A stretch of 64,000 nucleotides of DNA from an uncultured Bacteroidales bacterium (lineage in GTDB: Bacteria; Bacteroidota; Bacteroidia; Bacteroidales; Muribaculaceae): assembly GCA_902792895.1 (NCBI GenBank), contig CADBBK010000004.1:124464-188463 (forward strand), given 5' to 3'. Numbering within the stretch: the stretch's first letter is position 1; each line of letters opens with the position of its first letter. The notes under the pieces were generated by a model. That model saw nothing but the letters and a program-made list of their open reading frames with translations, did no database searches and was not told the origin of the DNA. A program made the position numbers and the translations under genes. Positions 40,161 to 46,326 of this stretch are shown in pieces.

Positions 40161-42206
<2,046 letters not shown>

Positions 42207-42230: not shown

Positions 42231-42327
42231 AGAGCCTTTGGCTCCGTGGGGCGTAATCCCCGCGACGATATATACATCTACAACAACCCCTGGGACCGTC
42301 ATTGGTCCCAGGGGTTATTATTATTGG
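42231..42327. repeat. Direct repeat flanking the RM-like cassette, left copy
   Basis: About 95 bp beginning AGAGCCTTTGG. It contains a short hairpin (GTGGGG...CCCCGC), then GACGATATATACATC, then a 13-bp perfect stem AACCCCTGGGACC (42285-42297) / GGTCCCAGGGGTT (42304-42316) followed by an AT tract. The copy at 44975-45069 is identical over about 82 of the first 84 bases. It probably also ends gyrB transcription and that of the convergent DUF262 gene. Confidence 0.9.
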
Positions 42328-42370
42328 AAAATCCAGATTTTCATTATAAGAGAAGGCACATAAGTGGAGT

Positions 42371-43531
42371 TCAATTGTTACCCTTAGAACGATTGTGATA
42401 GCGGCACAGCATCTGACAGTTGCTCTCATTGGTAGCACCACCTTTACTCCAAGCAGTCACATGGTCAGCGTCCATCTCGCTGAGTTGCCAAATGCGTTTA
42501 CTATTGCTGTCTGCCTTCAAGGCGCAGTCGGGGCAGTTACTCACACCTTTTTTCTTGGCTGCCTGAGTTTGCTTGGCATAGACACGATTGATGGTTGCTT
42601 TGTCAAAAATGCGGATGTTGAGCAGGCTCTTGTCTTTCTCTCCTCCCAAAATGAACTCAAAGATGCCCTTCTGGTTTTGCACGTAGGGGTCAGCATACAG
42701 TTCATGGACACGTTTGGAAACCTCAGCCACATTGTAGGGTCTCTTGTGATATAATTCGTAGAGACGGTTCCATTCCAAGCCGCACATTTCGGGCATCACA
42801 TCGCTGAAAACACTAGAGGCCCAATCAATTACAGTATTGAAATAAGTTTTCACGGGAGAAATATCACTATCTTGACGATGTTTGCTCATATATCCCTCAA
42901 TATTACCCTGGCTAACCCAATCGAGTGCGCGTTCGAGGAAATCCTGTCGATTAACGGAACCCTTGATATAAGCACTCCATTTTTGTATTAAGGGATTTTG
43001 ACTATTGCTGAATTCCTCTTTTAATGCAGTAACAAATTGGCCAGAGTAAACAGCATTCCTGATTTCCTGTTGTTTCAAAGGAATACCAACGATATTTATC
43101 GTTTTAAACCACTCTTTAATTTCTGGTTCTTCCCCCTCACAAATATAGATAAGCAGTTGAGTATCAAGCACTCGTTGCCTATCAATATCATCAAGGCCAT
43201 CGATATACTGTTGCATGCCATTTTTGTCTTTTATGGCGAGTTTGTGTGTCACGAAGCGTCCCAAGGTCGTAATGCGCTGTTGCCCATCAAGCACTTCGTA
43301 TTGATTGCCCACTTGATTAAAGTAGATAACTCCCAATGGGAATCCTTTTAGCACAGAGTCAATTACAGCGACATCTTTTTTGCCATCGGCATAGATGTAG
43401 TTGCGCTGATACTCAGGTTGGATAATCAATCTACCATTCAATCCGAACAGGCCTTTGCCCTCCAATTCATTATAAACAAATCCCTCACAGATGTCACGCA
43501 CGGTTATATCTGTTCTTAGTGTCGTTTTCAT
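42371..43531 (-). CDS. DUF262 domain protein with C-terminal HNH nuclease motif
   Basis: 386 residues. The N-terminal DUF262 (GmrS-like/ParB-Srx-fold) domain has QPEYQRNYIY (38-47) and VLDGQQRITTL (80-90), the latter being the family's nucleotide-binding/hydrolysis motif. A helical middle part follows. The C-terminus has CPDC near 333-336 and DADHVTAWSKGGATNESN, QMLCRYHNRSK, an HNH (His-Asn-His) endonuclease. DUF262-HNH proteins include modification-sensing and restriction nucleases. It lies 5 nt downstream of an EcoRI-type adenine methyltransferase gene in the same direction, so it is likely the nuclease partner. AT-rich compared with gyrB. Confidence 0.9.
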   Translation of the reverse strand: MKTTLRTDITVRDICEGFVYNELEGKGLFGLNGRLIIQPEYQRNYIYADGKKDVAVIDSVLKGFPLGVIYFNQVGNQYEVLDGQQRITTLGRFVTHKLAIKDKNGMQQYIDGLDDIDRQRVLDTQLLIYICEGEEPEIKEWFKTINIVGIPLKQQEIRNAVYSGQFVTALKEEFSNSQNPLIQKWSAYIKGSVNRQDFLERALDWVSQGNIEGYMSKHRQDSDISPVKTYFNTVIDWASSVFSDVMPEMCGLEWNRLYELYHKRPYNVAEVSKRVHELYADPYVQNQKGIFEFILGGEKDKSLLNIRIFDKATINRVYAKQTQAAKKKGVSNCPDCALKADSNSKRIWQLSEMDADHVTAWSKGGATNESNCQMLCRYHNRSKGNN

Positions 43532-43536
43532 ATATC

Positions 43537-44619
43537 TTATTGTTTTTTGCGGATTAATAATCTAGCGTACATTCTCTTGCCACAAATATAAGGCCTATCG
43601 TATTTATCATTTCCTGGTATTATTAACCATGACAAATCATTTCCTTTTTCGGTGATACCCATTAATTCAAACTGTTCTGGACAATACTTGTCAAGGAAAG
43701 AGATAGGAACTCCCATTACCCCATCATGGTCACTGGGAATTGTTTCGGTATAAGGTACCTCAATGGCATAATAGTTGTCATACTGAACATAGGCATGCTT
43801 CTCTCTAAGATCACTATGTCGACTGAATTTCAGGTTATCTGCTTTCGTCATCAAAGGCAATGGTAGATGTCGCCTACCATGGTCAAGGTTTGTAAACCAA
43901 CGTACTCCTTTAACACGAATATACTTATTGCCTTTTTCATCGATTCGCCATCCCGCTGCTTCAAGAGGATACTCTTCAGGGACTCCAAATTCTCGATCAC
44001 CACTGCTGATAGAACACCCATACCACATTTTGTTTCCTTTAATCAGTGGGAACACTTCTTTATAGGTGACGGCATTCATATTACCGATAATGAGGAAACG
44101 CTTATTTGCTTCAACAATCCAAGCGAGAAATTCACGGAATAAAGAAAAAGGAGGGTTTGTGATGATGATATCAGCCTCGTTACGTAAGGCACTTATTTCT
44201 TGGCTACGAAAGTCACCATCACCCTCTAGGTAATCCCATTGTAGGTTTTCTACTCTAATGTCACTTTGATTATCCCCTTTTCGTTCCAACACAAGGATTT
44301 TTCCATTTGAATTGCTTTTTTCAGCATTGAATTGAGATGGTTGTGATATGAATTTGGTAGGCTGCATTGGTTTGGCACTGTCCATAGCGAAACAAGTGGA
44401 AATCAGTTTTTTTAATCCAAAATACTCAAAATTCAAAACAAAGTACTTAGTAAAATTGCTCCACTCAGGATCGTCGCAAGGCAAGAGAATGCTTTTGCCG
44501 CGAAACACATCAGGGTCATACTCAAGATAAGCATTAATTTCCTTCTCAATGTCCTCAAATTGAGTGTAAAACTCATCATTTTGGGCCTCCTTAGCCCGAG
44601 TTAAATTCTCGTTTGGCAT
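43537..44619 (-). CDS. EcoRI-family adenine-specific DNA methyltransferase
   Basis: 360 residues. The N-terminus has NDEFYTQFEDIEKE and SILLPCDDPEWSNFTKYF (SAM-binding region), then ADIIITNPPFSLFREFL with the NPPF catalytic motif at 155-158, and IGNMNAVTYKEVFPLIKGNK. These mark the EcoRI methylase family (PF13651). It should methylate adenine in a specific DNA site; the site cannot be predicted. It is the first gene of a two-gene minus-strand operon with the DUF262-HNH protein. A TATCTTTG box at 44903-44910 implies a leader of about 280 nt containing large inverted repeats. Confidence 0.92.
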   Translation of the reverse strand: MPNENLTRAKEAQNDEFYTQFEDIEKEINAYLEYDPDVFRGKSILLPCDDPEWSNFTKYFVLNFEYFGLKKLISTCFAMDSAKPMQPTKFISQPSQFNAEKSNSNGKILVLERKGDNQSDIRVENLQWDYLEGDGDFRSQEISALRNEADIIITNPPFSLFREFLAWIVEANKRFLIIGNMNAVTYKEVFPLIKGNKMWYGCSISSGDREFGVPEEYPLEAAGWRIDEKGNKYIRVKGVRWFTNLDHGRRHLPLPLMTKADNLKFSRHSDLREKHAYVQYDNYYAIEVPYTETIPSDHDGVMGVPISFLDKYCPEQFELMGITEKGNDLSWLIIPGNDKYDRPYICGKRMYARLLIRKKQ

Positions 44620-44902
44620 AATGCATTAATAGTTTTTGAGGTTATTAATGCGCTGGGCCAATAAACAAAACGATCCTGCAAGTACCCCGAACACAGAAGG
44701 TGGACGAATGCCCGTCCAACGTTCAAGGTACTTGCAGGAAACCTAAACCAAAAGACAGGTAAACGCCCACACGAAGTGAGCGTTACCATTATTCTTCTGG
44801 TTTGTTCTTTCAACCTGCAAGTTTCTGAACGTTTGAATAATAGCCAACGCTAATTTAAATCCACGATGTCAAGCAAAGCACATTTGTGGCATTGCTCGAC
44901 GG
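44620..44902 (-). ncRNA. Structured leader or small RNA upstream of the methyltransferase gene
   Basis: The leader holds a 13-bp perfect inverted repeat, TCCTGCAAGTACC (44674-44686) / GGTACTTGCAGGA (44727-44739), with an inner stem TGGACG/CGTCCA (44701-44718). A second stem, GGTAAACGCCCAC / GTGAGCGTTACC, lies at 44758-44787. A further CCTGCAAGTTTCTGAACGTT (about 44814-44833) echoes the CCTGCAAGTACC and GAAC parts. A 70-codon frame (44601-44813) runs across the stems but looks like read-through of structure. It may be an attenuator, a regulatory RNA or a recombination site. The type is a best guess. Confidence 0.5.
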
Positions 44903-44910
44903 CAAAGATA
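44903..44910 (-). promoter_or_regulatory. Promoter -7 box of the RM-like operon
   Basis: TATCTTTG on the minus strand, inside the right direct repeat boundary. No TTTG box is found at the usual spacing, so it may need an activator or be weak. Confidence 0.55.
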
Positions 44911-44974
44911 ACAACAATCCTGGAATTATGGAAGTTAAAGGCAAAAAAACTGGAGTTTTGTTAATTTATCAAAA

Positions 44975-45069
44975 AGAGCCTTTGGTTCCGCGGGGCGTAA
45001 TCCCCGCGACGATATATACATCTACAACAACCCCTGGGACCGTCATTGGTCCCAGGGGTATTTATTTGG
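44975..45069. repeat. Direct repeat flanking the RM-like cassette, right copy
   Basis: Same sequence and orientation as 42231-42327: AGAGCCTTTGG, GCGGGG/CCCCGC hairpin, GACGATATATACATC, then ACCCCTGGGACC (45030-45041) / GGTCCCAGGGGT (45048-45059) and an AT tract. It lies between the cassette promoter and the next chromosomal gene, so the operon with its promoter is enclosed by the two copies. Confidence 0.9.
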
Positions 45070-45153
45070 CGTCAACCACAGGTCAGTCGCAAAAAGTGAA
45101 ACTCACGCTATCATTGTCAGTTAGATAACGGCAAATCACTGATACTCAATTAT

Positions 45154-46326
45154 TCAATGAGTAGAGGCGCAAAATTTTGCGCCTCTACATGCCTCAGATG
45201 GCAAACTCGCTGATATCCCGATTACCACCTGACTGCGTGTGATAGCGTTGTCGTTTAATTGCAACCCTGCTTGGGCAGCGTCTCCATTGCGCGTGAGCGA
45301 TGAAACAATCCAGCCCTTGCCGATGTCGGTGCGGTTTCTGAAATCGAAGTCATAGGTGGGCTTGACGGGTTGGTCTGCCTTGAAACGCTTTAGGTAGAGA
45401 ACATTGTGCGGAATGTCAATAATCAGATTGAACTTGGATAACACCTTATTGCCGATGATGCCAACATAGTCCTTCTCGCCAAATGCGCCTGTTCCGTCGG
45501 GCAAATTAGAAATCACCTCGTTGCTGGTGGTATCAGAGCCGATGACGATACGCTGTGACTGCATCTCGATAATTGACTCTTGTGACTTGTCTCCAATGCC
45601 AAACTGCGTCATGTCCTTAACATATCTCTTGCCTGGCAGCGATTCAAGCCCGTACTGCTTAACGGTACTTGCCGTGAAGTCGACAGCGGCACCTGAGCCC
45701 GTGTCCACAAGAAACCAACCCTGGATGCTCTTGCCGCCGACGAGAACCTCGGCCTGAACCTGGATTCGGTGGTCATGGCAACGGATCGGCAATTCCTCAT
45801 AGTCCTCGACCAGTGGATTTCCATCCTTGTAATACTTCAAGAAACTGTGCTCAAAGTTGATTTCCAACGGATGTTGCTCAATGTCCTTGATGCCCCATAT
45901 GCCATCGACATGGCAATCCACCACATCCCTCAACTTGAAAATCGGCACAATCTGGTAAGTGCTCTTTAACGACCCGATGCTCAACGATGTAAGGTCCATG
46001 ATGACGCGCACACTGGTGCTGCCCGCGGCACCCCCTGTCCTTGCCCGGCCGAGGCTCTGCGGATGCCATTCCGAGGCCGAGAGATAGACACTGTCGATGC
46101 CGAATAGGTCAGAGCCGCCCGTGTCAAAGATAACGTTGGCCTGATATTCATAGTTGATACAAGCAGGGAGATAGAGATGCCCACGGTACAGGAACGGGAT
46201 GCTATCATTGCCCCACGCCACTGCAACCCATGACCAAAGTACGGCCAGGACAATGATAAGCAATCGTTGATTATTCTTTAAAAACATCATCTTCGTTAAT
46301 TGATTGTTCGACAATAATTTGCGCAT
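45154..46326 (-). CDS. Retropepsin-like aspartyl protease with two DTG motifs, C-terminus frameshifted
   Basis: 390 residues as read. After a signal-type segment (LLIIVLAVLWSWVAVAWG) come two protease lobes, each with a catalytic motif: VIFDTGGSDLFG and WFLVDTGSGAAVDF. Then a PDZ-like start, GWIVSSLTRNGDAAQAGLQL. The end is odd: after LQLNDNAITRSQV the frame runs through a 28-bp palindrome (45161-45188). A shifted frame gives NRDISEFAI and a stop at 45194, just before the palindrome, as expected for the PDZ end. So one indel near 45215-45240 is likely. Start could also be the Met at residue 13 or 14. Substrate unknown; envelope location. Confidence 0.82.
   Translation of the reverse strand: MRKLLSNNQLTKMMFLKNNQRLLIIVLAVLWSWVAVAWGNDSIPFLYRGHLYLPACINYEYQANVIFDTGGSDLFGIDSVYLSASEWHPQSLGRARTGGAAGSTSVRVIMDLTSLSIGSLKSTYQIVPIFKLRDVVDCHVDGIWGIKDIEQHPLEINFEHSFLKYYKDGNPLVEDYEELPIRCHDHRIQVQAEVLVGGKSIQGWFLVDTGSGAAVDFTASTVKQYGLESLPGKRYVKDMTQFGIGDKSQESIIEMQSQRIVIGSDTTSNEVISNLPDGTGAFGEKDYVGIIGNKVLSKFNLIIDIPHNVLYLKRFKADQPVKPTYDFDFRNRTDIGKGWIVSSLTRNGDAAQAGLQLNDNAITRSQVVIGISASLPSEACRGAKFCASTH
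45161..45188. repeat. Perfect 28-bp palindrome
   Basis: GTAGAGGCGCAAAA followed by its exact reverse complement TTTTGCGCCTCTAC. It lies six bases beyond the corrected stop of the aspartyl protease gene and is probably its terminator or a dispersed palindromic repeat. Confidence 0.75.

Follow-up and report, generated by a model that had tools for sequence, protein, structure and literature searches.

A 64,000-nt stretch of DNA from an uncultured Bacteroidales bacterium of the Muribaculaceae (contig CADBBK010000004.1; hereafter the window) carries, beside gyrB, a gene for an EcoRI-family adenine methyltransferase (MTase) and a gene for a DUF262-HNH nuclease, enclosed by direct repeats. On sequence grounds this unit is a mobile restriction-modification (R-M) cassette of an already catalogued kind, and two of its features seem to go beyond that kind, namely an apparent choice of the target by the MTase only and an RNA leader that is widely shared. 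The explanation that we hold to be probable is that of a mobile three-part R-M unit, in which the MTase would give the specificity, the nuclease would obey it and the leader would gate expression. The unit had been picked out from the letters of the window in an earlier reading, referred to below as the original prediction.

Block exchange in the methyltransferase

The MTase matches PF13651 over the full length of the profile (E=6e-124, positions 1-345 of 345), and its NPPF motif (N155 P156 P157 F158) is invariant in 75 sequences. Variation of the MTase and the nuclease was compared in a set of 93 gene pairs, giving 4278 comparisons, in which one locus is present twice (as L049 and L106). Over 20-residue stretches of the MTase, mean pair identity was 0.54-0.81 in the framework and 0.39-0.46 in the region HV1, and fell to 0.20-0.29 at residues 201-240 (HV2) and 321-340 (HV3); the lowest 20-residue stretch of the nuclease had 0.49. 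HV1 (residues 82-118) was considered as a third module and ruled out, as it tracks the framework (r 0.86).

Among the 132 comparisons in which the nucleases were at least 85% identical, HV2 identity was either low (below 40%, 113 comparisons) or high (above 80%, 19), and HV3 identity likewise split into 115 comparisons below 30% and 17 above 50%. For example, L099 and L102 are 99.7% identical in the nuclease and 96% in the MTase framework, with 18% identity at HV2 and 18% at HV3. L099 and L108 (nuclease 98.4%) have 100% identity at HV2 and 13% at HV3, and the flanks of their operons match on both sides apart from one upstream gap. L084 and L086 (nuclease 99.0%, HV2 21%, HV3 17%) differ in their upstream surroundings. 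When the operons of close alleles were read in 60-nt steps, DNA identity was 15-59% at the blocks and 73-100%, mostly above 90%, elsewhere. The exchanged stretches have lengths of 29-52 (residues 198-243) and 27-75 (residues 319-356), and single-linkage clustering at 55% gave 17 HV2 types and 48 HV3 types, which occur in 75 combinations among the 93 MTases.

We infer from these alleles that HV2 and HV3 are two exchangeable target-recognition modules of the MTase. As the nuclease stays nearly constant while both blocks are swapped, independently of each other, the MTase probably chooses the target by itself, in the manner of type I systems; a nuclease that is unchanged despite the exchange of both blocks would hardly be able to read the target itself. 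In the type I logic of HsdS and HsdM, recognition modules are exchanged independently in the modification part and the nuclease is unchanged. The present unit appears to follow this pattern, with two modules swapped independently in its modification part and a constant nuclease, but its operon has no separate S subunit and no translocase, and its MTase is only 360 aa long. With the EcoRI R-M system, the classic pair of which is found on an E. coli plasmid, it shares an MTase in PF13651 (the M.EcoRI family), whereas the partner here is a DUF262-HNH protein rather than EcoRI and the MTase has two apparently exchangeable blocks.

The nuclease and alternative explanations

Pfam assigns the nuclease to PF03235 GmrSD_N (E=9e-21) and PF01844 HNH (E=4e-7, residues 333-385). 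The DGQQR motif (residues 82-86) is kept in 97 of 97 sequences, the H, N and C residues of the HNH domain in 95-97 of 97 and D354 in 93. The DUF1524 C-terminal domain of the GmrSD family was not found in the Pfam search, and the PF01844 HNH domain stands in its place. GmrSD, BrxU and SspE are DUF262-DUF1524 nucleases according to the accessible parts of three papers (PMC4619093, PMC12707154, PMC10952713), and according to a fourth the HNH domain of SspE is activated by GTP hydrolysis, which is licensed by phosphorothioate (PT) (PMC13251355). The present nuclease is similar to these proteins in having a DUF262 domain with DGQQR and a C-terminal His-Me finger nuclease, and different in its PF01844 domain, its length of 386 aa and its position next to its own adenine MTase. 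Control of the nuclease by a nucleotide or by modification is plausible from this domain content.

The nuclease could thus read methyl marks regardless of sequence, in the style of GmrSD, BrxU and SspE, while the MTase merely writes the self mark, and restriction would then be SspE-like and not site-directed. The fully conserved DGQQR and the SspE precedent are in its favour, and it would likewise account for the constant nuclease. However, the HNH domain is PF01844 and not DUF1524, the nuclease is without any sign of methyl binding, and the structural neighbours of a joint MTase-nuclease chain were CDP/CTP-binding ParB chains (best E 0.0029), with SspE weaker (E 0.11). We regard this explanation as rather unlikely.

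An ordinary type II system, with a nuclease that finds the same site unaided and an MTase that diverges by neutral drift, would agree with the adjacent genes in a two-gene operon, with the intact active-site motifs of the nuclease and with PADLOC, which places both proteins in type II by nearly full-length matches (nuclease, REase_II PDLC03418, E=1e-81, residues 7-385; MTase, MTase_II PDLC03297). The pair as such is therefore catalogued, but the PADLOC models are silent on mechanism, and an exchange of blocks next to a nuclease that stays constant seems hard to square with independent recognition of the type II sort. Nucleases with 98-99.7% identity stand beside MTases in which one or both blocks are replaced, the change in the MTase is confined to these blocks and not spread, and even the least conserved stretch of the nuclease stays at the 0.49 given above. 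An ordinary type II system is accordingly quite improbable in our judgement.

Several points weigh against a choice of the target in the MTase alone. Over all comparisons, the nuclease had a mean pairwise identity of 72% and the MTase one of 59%, the MTase being the lower in 94%, but the high average of the nuclease is biased because the set was selected by similarity to the nuclease of the window. The correlations of identity between HV2 and the nuclease (r 0.07), HV3 and the nuclease (r 0.11) and HV2 and HV3 (r 0.07) are low, but that between the MTase framework and the nuclease is also weak (r 0.22), so the values for the blocks say little alone and the close alleles bear the argument. The AlphaFold2 model of the MTase (predicted local distance difference test, pLDDT, 82; predicted template modelling score, pTM, 0.81) had no close neighbour in the PDB (best E 0.0036). 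Sequence search found a solved relative for neither protein, and for this reason the blocks cannot be placed on a DNA-bound structure. No reliable interface between MTase and nuclease was obtained from the fused read-through chain of L102 (pTM 0.48).

The variable blocks could also sit on exposed loops, and HV2 and HV3 might be surfaces that evade phage anti-restriction proteins rather than target-recognition modules. The all-or-none exchange and independent assortment of the blocks resemble recognition modules, and an evading surface should be present in the nuclease too, where there is no block of this kind. A role in evasion is given a low probability here.

The leader RNA

About 250 nt upstream of the MTase start are 83-92% identical in DNA at 13 of 30 pair loci, the window included, and three further leaders, diverged but placed at the MTase start, were picked up by a covariance model (E 4e-5 to 2.5e-3). 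The original prediction had described this leader as structured, which agrees with the folding of the 141-nt 3' part of the window leader (z = -5.8 against shuffles) and with covariation over the whole leader. In a hand-picked alignment of 15 leaders, 13 of them from EcoRI-type operons, and with a structure that includes a pseudoknot helix, 97.7% of the paired cells hold and 59 change on both sides, compared with 37-48% and 7-16 when the partner was slid. Forty-seven leader loci were submitted to alignment with the model R2 and 44 passed (not L312, L313 and L315); in this alignment, which leans towards the model, both-side changes occur in 52 of 53 pairs, and the number of such cells is 579, compared with 160 after shuffling and 82-121 after sliding. 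The leader model itself spans 253 positions and includes seven helices. The first consensus of RNAalifold, an alternative hairpin, was rejected, as distant members share the long-range helix instead.

The leaders end near start codons, and a terminal hairpin is present in the R-M leader set. Alternative pairing was examined in 30 of the 44 leaders, the tails of the others being too short, against plain letter shuffles of the tails; in 12 of the 30, at least 8 bp can form between the 3' strand of the central helix and a segment further on, where 1.1 such leaders were expected. The leader of the window takes different folds with and without the later pairing segment. We infer from these modelled pairings an attenuator-like two-state design in the 12 leaders, which was not seen in the other 18.

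R2 matches were found in 48 of 397 genomes and 16 of 30 genera of the family, and in 36 of 393 genomes and 28 of 207 genera of the order (both counts include the own genome and a few short fragments). Neither the window leader nor the other leaders searched had an Rfam match at gathering score. The best match below threshold was RF02914 DUF805b RNA (28.5 against 35.6 bits), which covers 36 nt of a single distant leader (L295), in its 3' part, and was found neither in the window leader nor in the others searched. HMP2_1881, a candidate RNA of 108 bp that is reported from Bacteroidetes near radical SAM domains (PMC8040213), might be part of this leader family. Among the titles listed from the open-licence literature, which leaves aside most subscription papers and REBASE, none dealt with a DUF262 protein as partner for EcoRI-family MTases or with a leader RNA of R-M systems.

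Genes behind the leader

At the order level there were 45 leader places outside the own genome and the G105 fragment, of which 37 were read; 5 places within 420 bases of a contig end and 3 weak ones were left out. An R-M MTase comes first behind the leader at 14 of the 37, a count that did not change when Pfam was run on 16 places first judged by eye. These are HsdM or type I-like (L317, L325, L349), type III Mod-like with N6_N4_Mtase (L327, L336, L340), N6_Mtase/IIG or MmeI (L342, L344, L346, L352), C5 MTase (L355) and PADLOC MTase_II (L320, L353 and, weakly, L322). A DarT-domain gene follows the leader at L331 and no open frame at L329; the other 21 places have other or no Pfam domains, and several of their products are of secreted or surface type. 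At the family level, 5 of 28 places are R-M or R-M-like (HSDR_N at L291, MTase_II at L309 and L312, weak matches below the Pfam cut-off at L313 and L314), and the remainder are, by eye, mostly secreted proteins and lipoproteins; 12 of the 28 genes were given a family search. In G097 the leader precedes a type III-like operon (N6_N4_Mtase, then ResIII), and in G004 an N6_N4 MTase.

Among members of the genus, leaders also stand before sulfatase-fold genes, phosphoethanolamine-transferase-like by eye (L264 999-1234, L265 1001-1245, L266 1118-1375). Two further leaders precede Sel1-repeat/radical-SAM SPASM genes (L268 1019-1239, L269 4968-5188) and may overlap HMP2_1881. A leader specific to R-M systems is ruled out by these sulfatase-fold, Sel1/radical-SAM, secreted and other genes.

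It is quite possible, although we hold it only tentatively, that one structured RNA switch is used across Bacteroidales before R-M systems of several types (type I HsdM, EcoRI-like pairs, C5, IIG/MmeI MTases and type III Mod) and before some other defence genes (one DarT-domain gene), as a common control of DNA defence at the RNA level; in the window it would drive a pair with two swappable MTase modules and a universal nuclease that obeys them. Such a control is made less certain by the leader not being found, being absent or too diverged, at 14 of the 30 pair loci, and by the non-R-M genes that follow it at more than half of the leader places. The model was trained on R-M leaders and R-M matches are therefore favoured, yet the R-M types behind the leader are unrelated. 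It is very improbable that the leader is instead a folded single-stranded DNA recombination site (attC-like) exchanging accessory genes: very different accessory genes do lie behind it and it travels with the cassette, but it ends near start codons, carries the terminal hairpin in the R-M set and the alternative pairing in part of the family, and the cassette boundaries are the target repeats and not the leader.

Linkage and distribution of the gene pair

The original prediction had called the nuclease an uncommon partner for this MTase family, which does not hold, as PADLOC models the nuclease as type II and the two genes are tightly linked rather than independent both within the genus and beyond it. 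PF13651 was found at 58 places in the genus (split hits merged), and the nuclease lies no more than 500 bp away at 55 of them; of the three unlinked places, two stop at a contig end and one is fused, by eye to a C5 MTase. In a scan of a genome collection, the MTase was upstream of the nuclease in 78 of the best 80 of 221 nuclease relatives, some of which coincide with loci of the genus search, and the two remaining loci begin within the nuclease gene. A natural MTase-nuclease fusion was considered at L190 (2722-4827) and rejected: its 701-aa frame with PF13651 goes on, as judged by eye, as a C5 cytosine MTase, and the 7-kb stretch around it gave no DUF262 match.

Nine of the 78 linked loci (L105, L114, L118, L124, L128, L133, L140, L151 and L158) have about 0.6-2.4 kb of other sequence between the two genes, with unrelated genes that are by eye Fic-like, RhuM-like, AAA and others. 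Going by record titles, the pair occurs in Bacteroidota, Chloroflexota, Patescibacteria, Treponema, Paenibacillus, Alphaproteobacteria, an archaeal metagenome-assembled genome (MAG) and others, where single assignments may be contamination because many hosts are MAGs. It is also intact on plasmids, where the two genes are annotated side by side. An MTase and nuclease pair is annotated on the genome of Flavobacterium phage laban6-1 (L208 1781-4143), and a far diverged MTase and DUF262-HNH pair with 28-29% identity was seen at L193 (2255-4399) and L194 (2034-4178).

Insertion beside gyrB

Judged by its repeats and by the sites of its relatives, the cassette entered the genome behind gyrB and duplicated 92 bp of its target. 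Pfam and the coordinates of the open reading frames confirm the predicted two-gene operon, in which the nuclease follows the MTase after 5 nt. The enclosing direct repeats, expected at about 95 bp, adjoin gyrB and are 92 nt long with 96% identity between the copies, and the genes are AT-richer than their flanks as had been stated (G+C fraction 0.39-0.43 over 42700-45199, against 0.56-0.62 in gyrB and 0.48-0.59 beyond the cassette). Each repeat copy contains a terminator-like hairpin (42285-42316 on the left, 45030-45059 on the right), so that each neighbour of the insertion retains one. The features are listed in Table 1.

Table 1. Coordinates of the cassette and its neighbours in the window
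Feature	Position	Strand	Basis
gyrB, left flank, outside the cassette	40227..42206	+	name by eye from translation; adjacency also in relatives
Left copy of direct repeat (target duplication)	42231..42322	+	repeat comparison; single copy beside gyrB in relatives
DUF262 (GmrSD_N)-HNH nuclease, 386 aa	42371..43531	-	Pfam; PADLOC REase_II; motif conservation
EcoRI-family adenine MTase, 360 aa	43537..44619	-	PF13651; PADLOC MTase_II; invariant columns
MTase block HV3 (residues 322-352), putative exchangeable target-recognition module 2	43564..43656	-	
MTase block HV2 (residues 201-240), putative exchangeable target-recognition module 1	43900..44019	-	
Structured operon leader RNA, 3' end at the MTase start codon	44620..44870	-	
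Right copy of direct repeat	44975..45066	+	
Right-flank gene, aspartic-protease-like by eye	45154..46326	-	after single repeat in several relatives

The 3.2-Mb assembly to which the window belongs contains the repeat twice. It was matched in 31 of 101 genomes of the genus (own included), each with a single match apart from the own genome and G093, which have two. Nine of the 31 relative places (L003-L011) match at least 89 of the 92 nt, and the remainder are shorter, mostly 26-61 nt. Twenty-nine of the 31 were read as stretches of about 2-3 kb, and at 28 of these the repeat lies behind gyrB with no MTase or nuclease match within the stretch; in the 29th (L029, in G094) a piece of the nuclease 3' end is left. 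Relatives thus carry a single repeat behind gyrB without the gene pair, which is the empty site that the original prediction had called for. The right-flank gene is also present after the repeat in L003-L008, and the right flank aligns immediately after the single repeat in L004, L005, L007 and L008; in L003, L006 and L009 the sequence diverges directly past it. Together with the target duplication and the occurrence of the pair elsewhere in other genomes, these sites agree with the self-contained cassette (leader, MTase and nuclease) that had been proposed.

In G099 the pair lies near a gene homologous to another of the right-flank genes (L037), and the neighbourhood has therefore been used more than once. 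Remnants of the HNH 3' end of the nuclease, fused to a duplicated gyrB 3' end and the repeat, are seen in G093 (L071 8520-8989) and G094 (L072 8-317), and could be traces of further insertion or deletion events. Short lone fragments like the nuclease 3' end occur elsewhere in relatives (L073 5492-5575, L074 5251-5298, L075 5234-5281, L076 4492-4587).

A second, distant pair is present in the same genome (G000:C9:64737-66949; L077 4726-6959), with a nuclease of 41% identity and a weak leader match upstream (E 0.003). Its flanking direct repeat is 99 bp long, 100% identical and overlaps the start of the adjacent open frame. Its left flank and a repeat copy were present in 9 of 9 relative loci examined, the right flank follows almost directly after a copy of the repeat in L203, and three relatives have two matches to this repeat.

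As a control, pair loci were compared with 894 random 2.3-kb segments drawn from them, counting repeats that lie at most 700 bp from each end. Repeats of at least 80 bp and 78% identity occurred at 6 of 30 pair loci and in none of the 894 segments, and those of at least 40 bp at 9 of 30 and in 1 of 894; the flank width of 700 bp was picked after inspecting the repeats, and a 31st locus had no flank. The six include L170, L174, L179 and L065, where the repeats are candidate target duplications, as are those of L173 and L167, which lie further out. The majority of pair loci are hence without such a repeat. A third repeat copy lies nearby at L170, and the repeat of L180 looks tandem.

Insertion of R-M units with long target duplication was reportedly described by Nobusato in 2000 and Furuta in 2010, and we know of no demonstrated mechanism for it. 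Target duplications of the order of 100 bp are known for R-M units, as far as the accessible parts of three papers go (PMC3874152, PMC4978471, PMC3031569). The present case is similar in its duplications of about 100 bp (92 and 99 bp) and in the single copy at the empty site, and different in its host group and in the leader RNA that is part of the unit.

Proposed working and significance

In the mobile three-part unit that we favour, the nuclease would have no target choice of its own and would borrow the target from the MTase. It may do so by docking on the MTase (type I-like), or by sensing the methylation state of the sites that the MTase defines (SspE-like). The DUF262 domain would use a nucleotide as a switch, and the HNH domain would cut unmodified incoming DNA. 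The leader would fold first into the conserved long-range (pseudoknotted) form and could then switch to the alternative hairpin; with such a two-fold switch, expression of the operon is probably gated by attenuation, e.g., on entry into a cell with unmodified DNA.

In ordinary type II systems a new target demands a joint change of both enzymes, whereas the natural alleles found here suggest that a change of the MTase suffices. If true, two genes in about 2.7 kb would make up a system with modular specificity, and this could help to explain its spread over many phyla. The control of R-M systems is usually attributed to C proteins, promoters or antisense RNA, and a conserved RNA leader before the MTases of unrelated R-M types would add a new layer of control.

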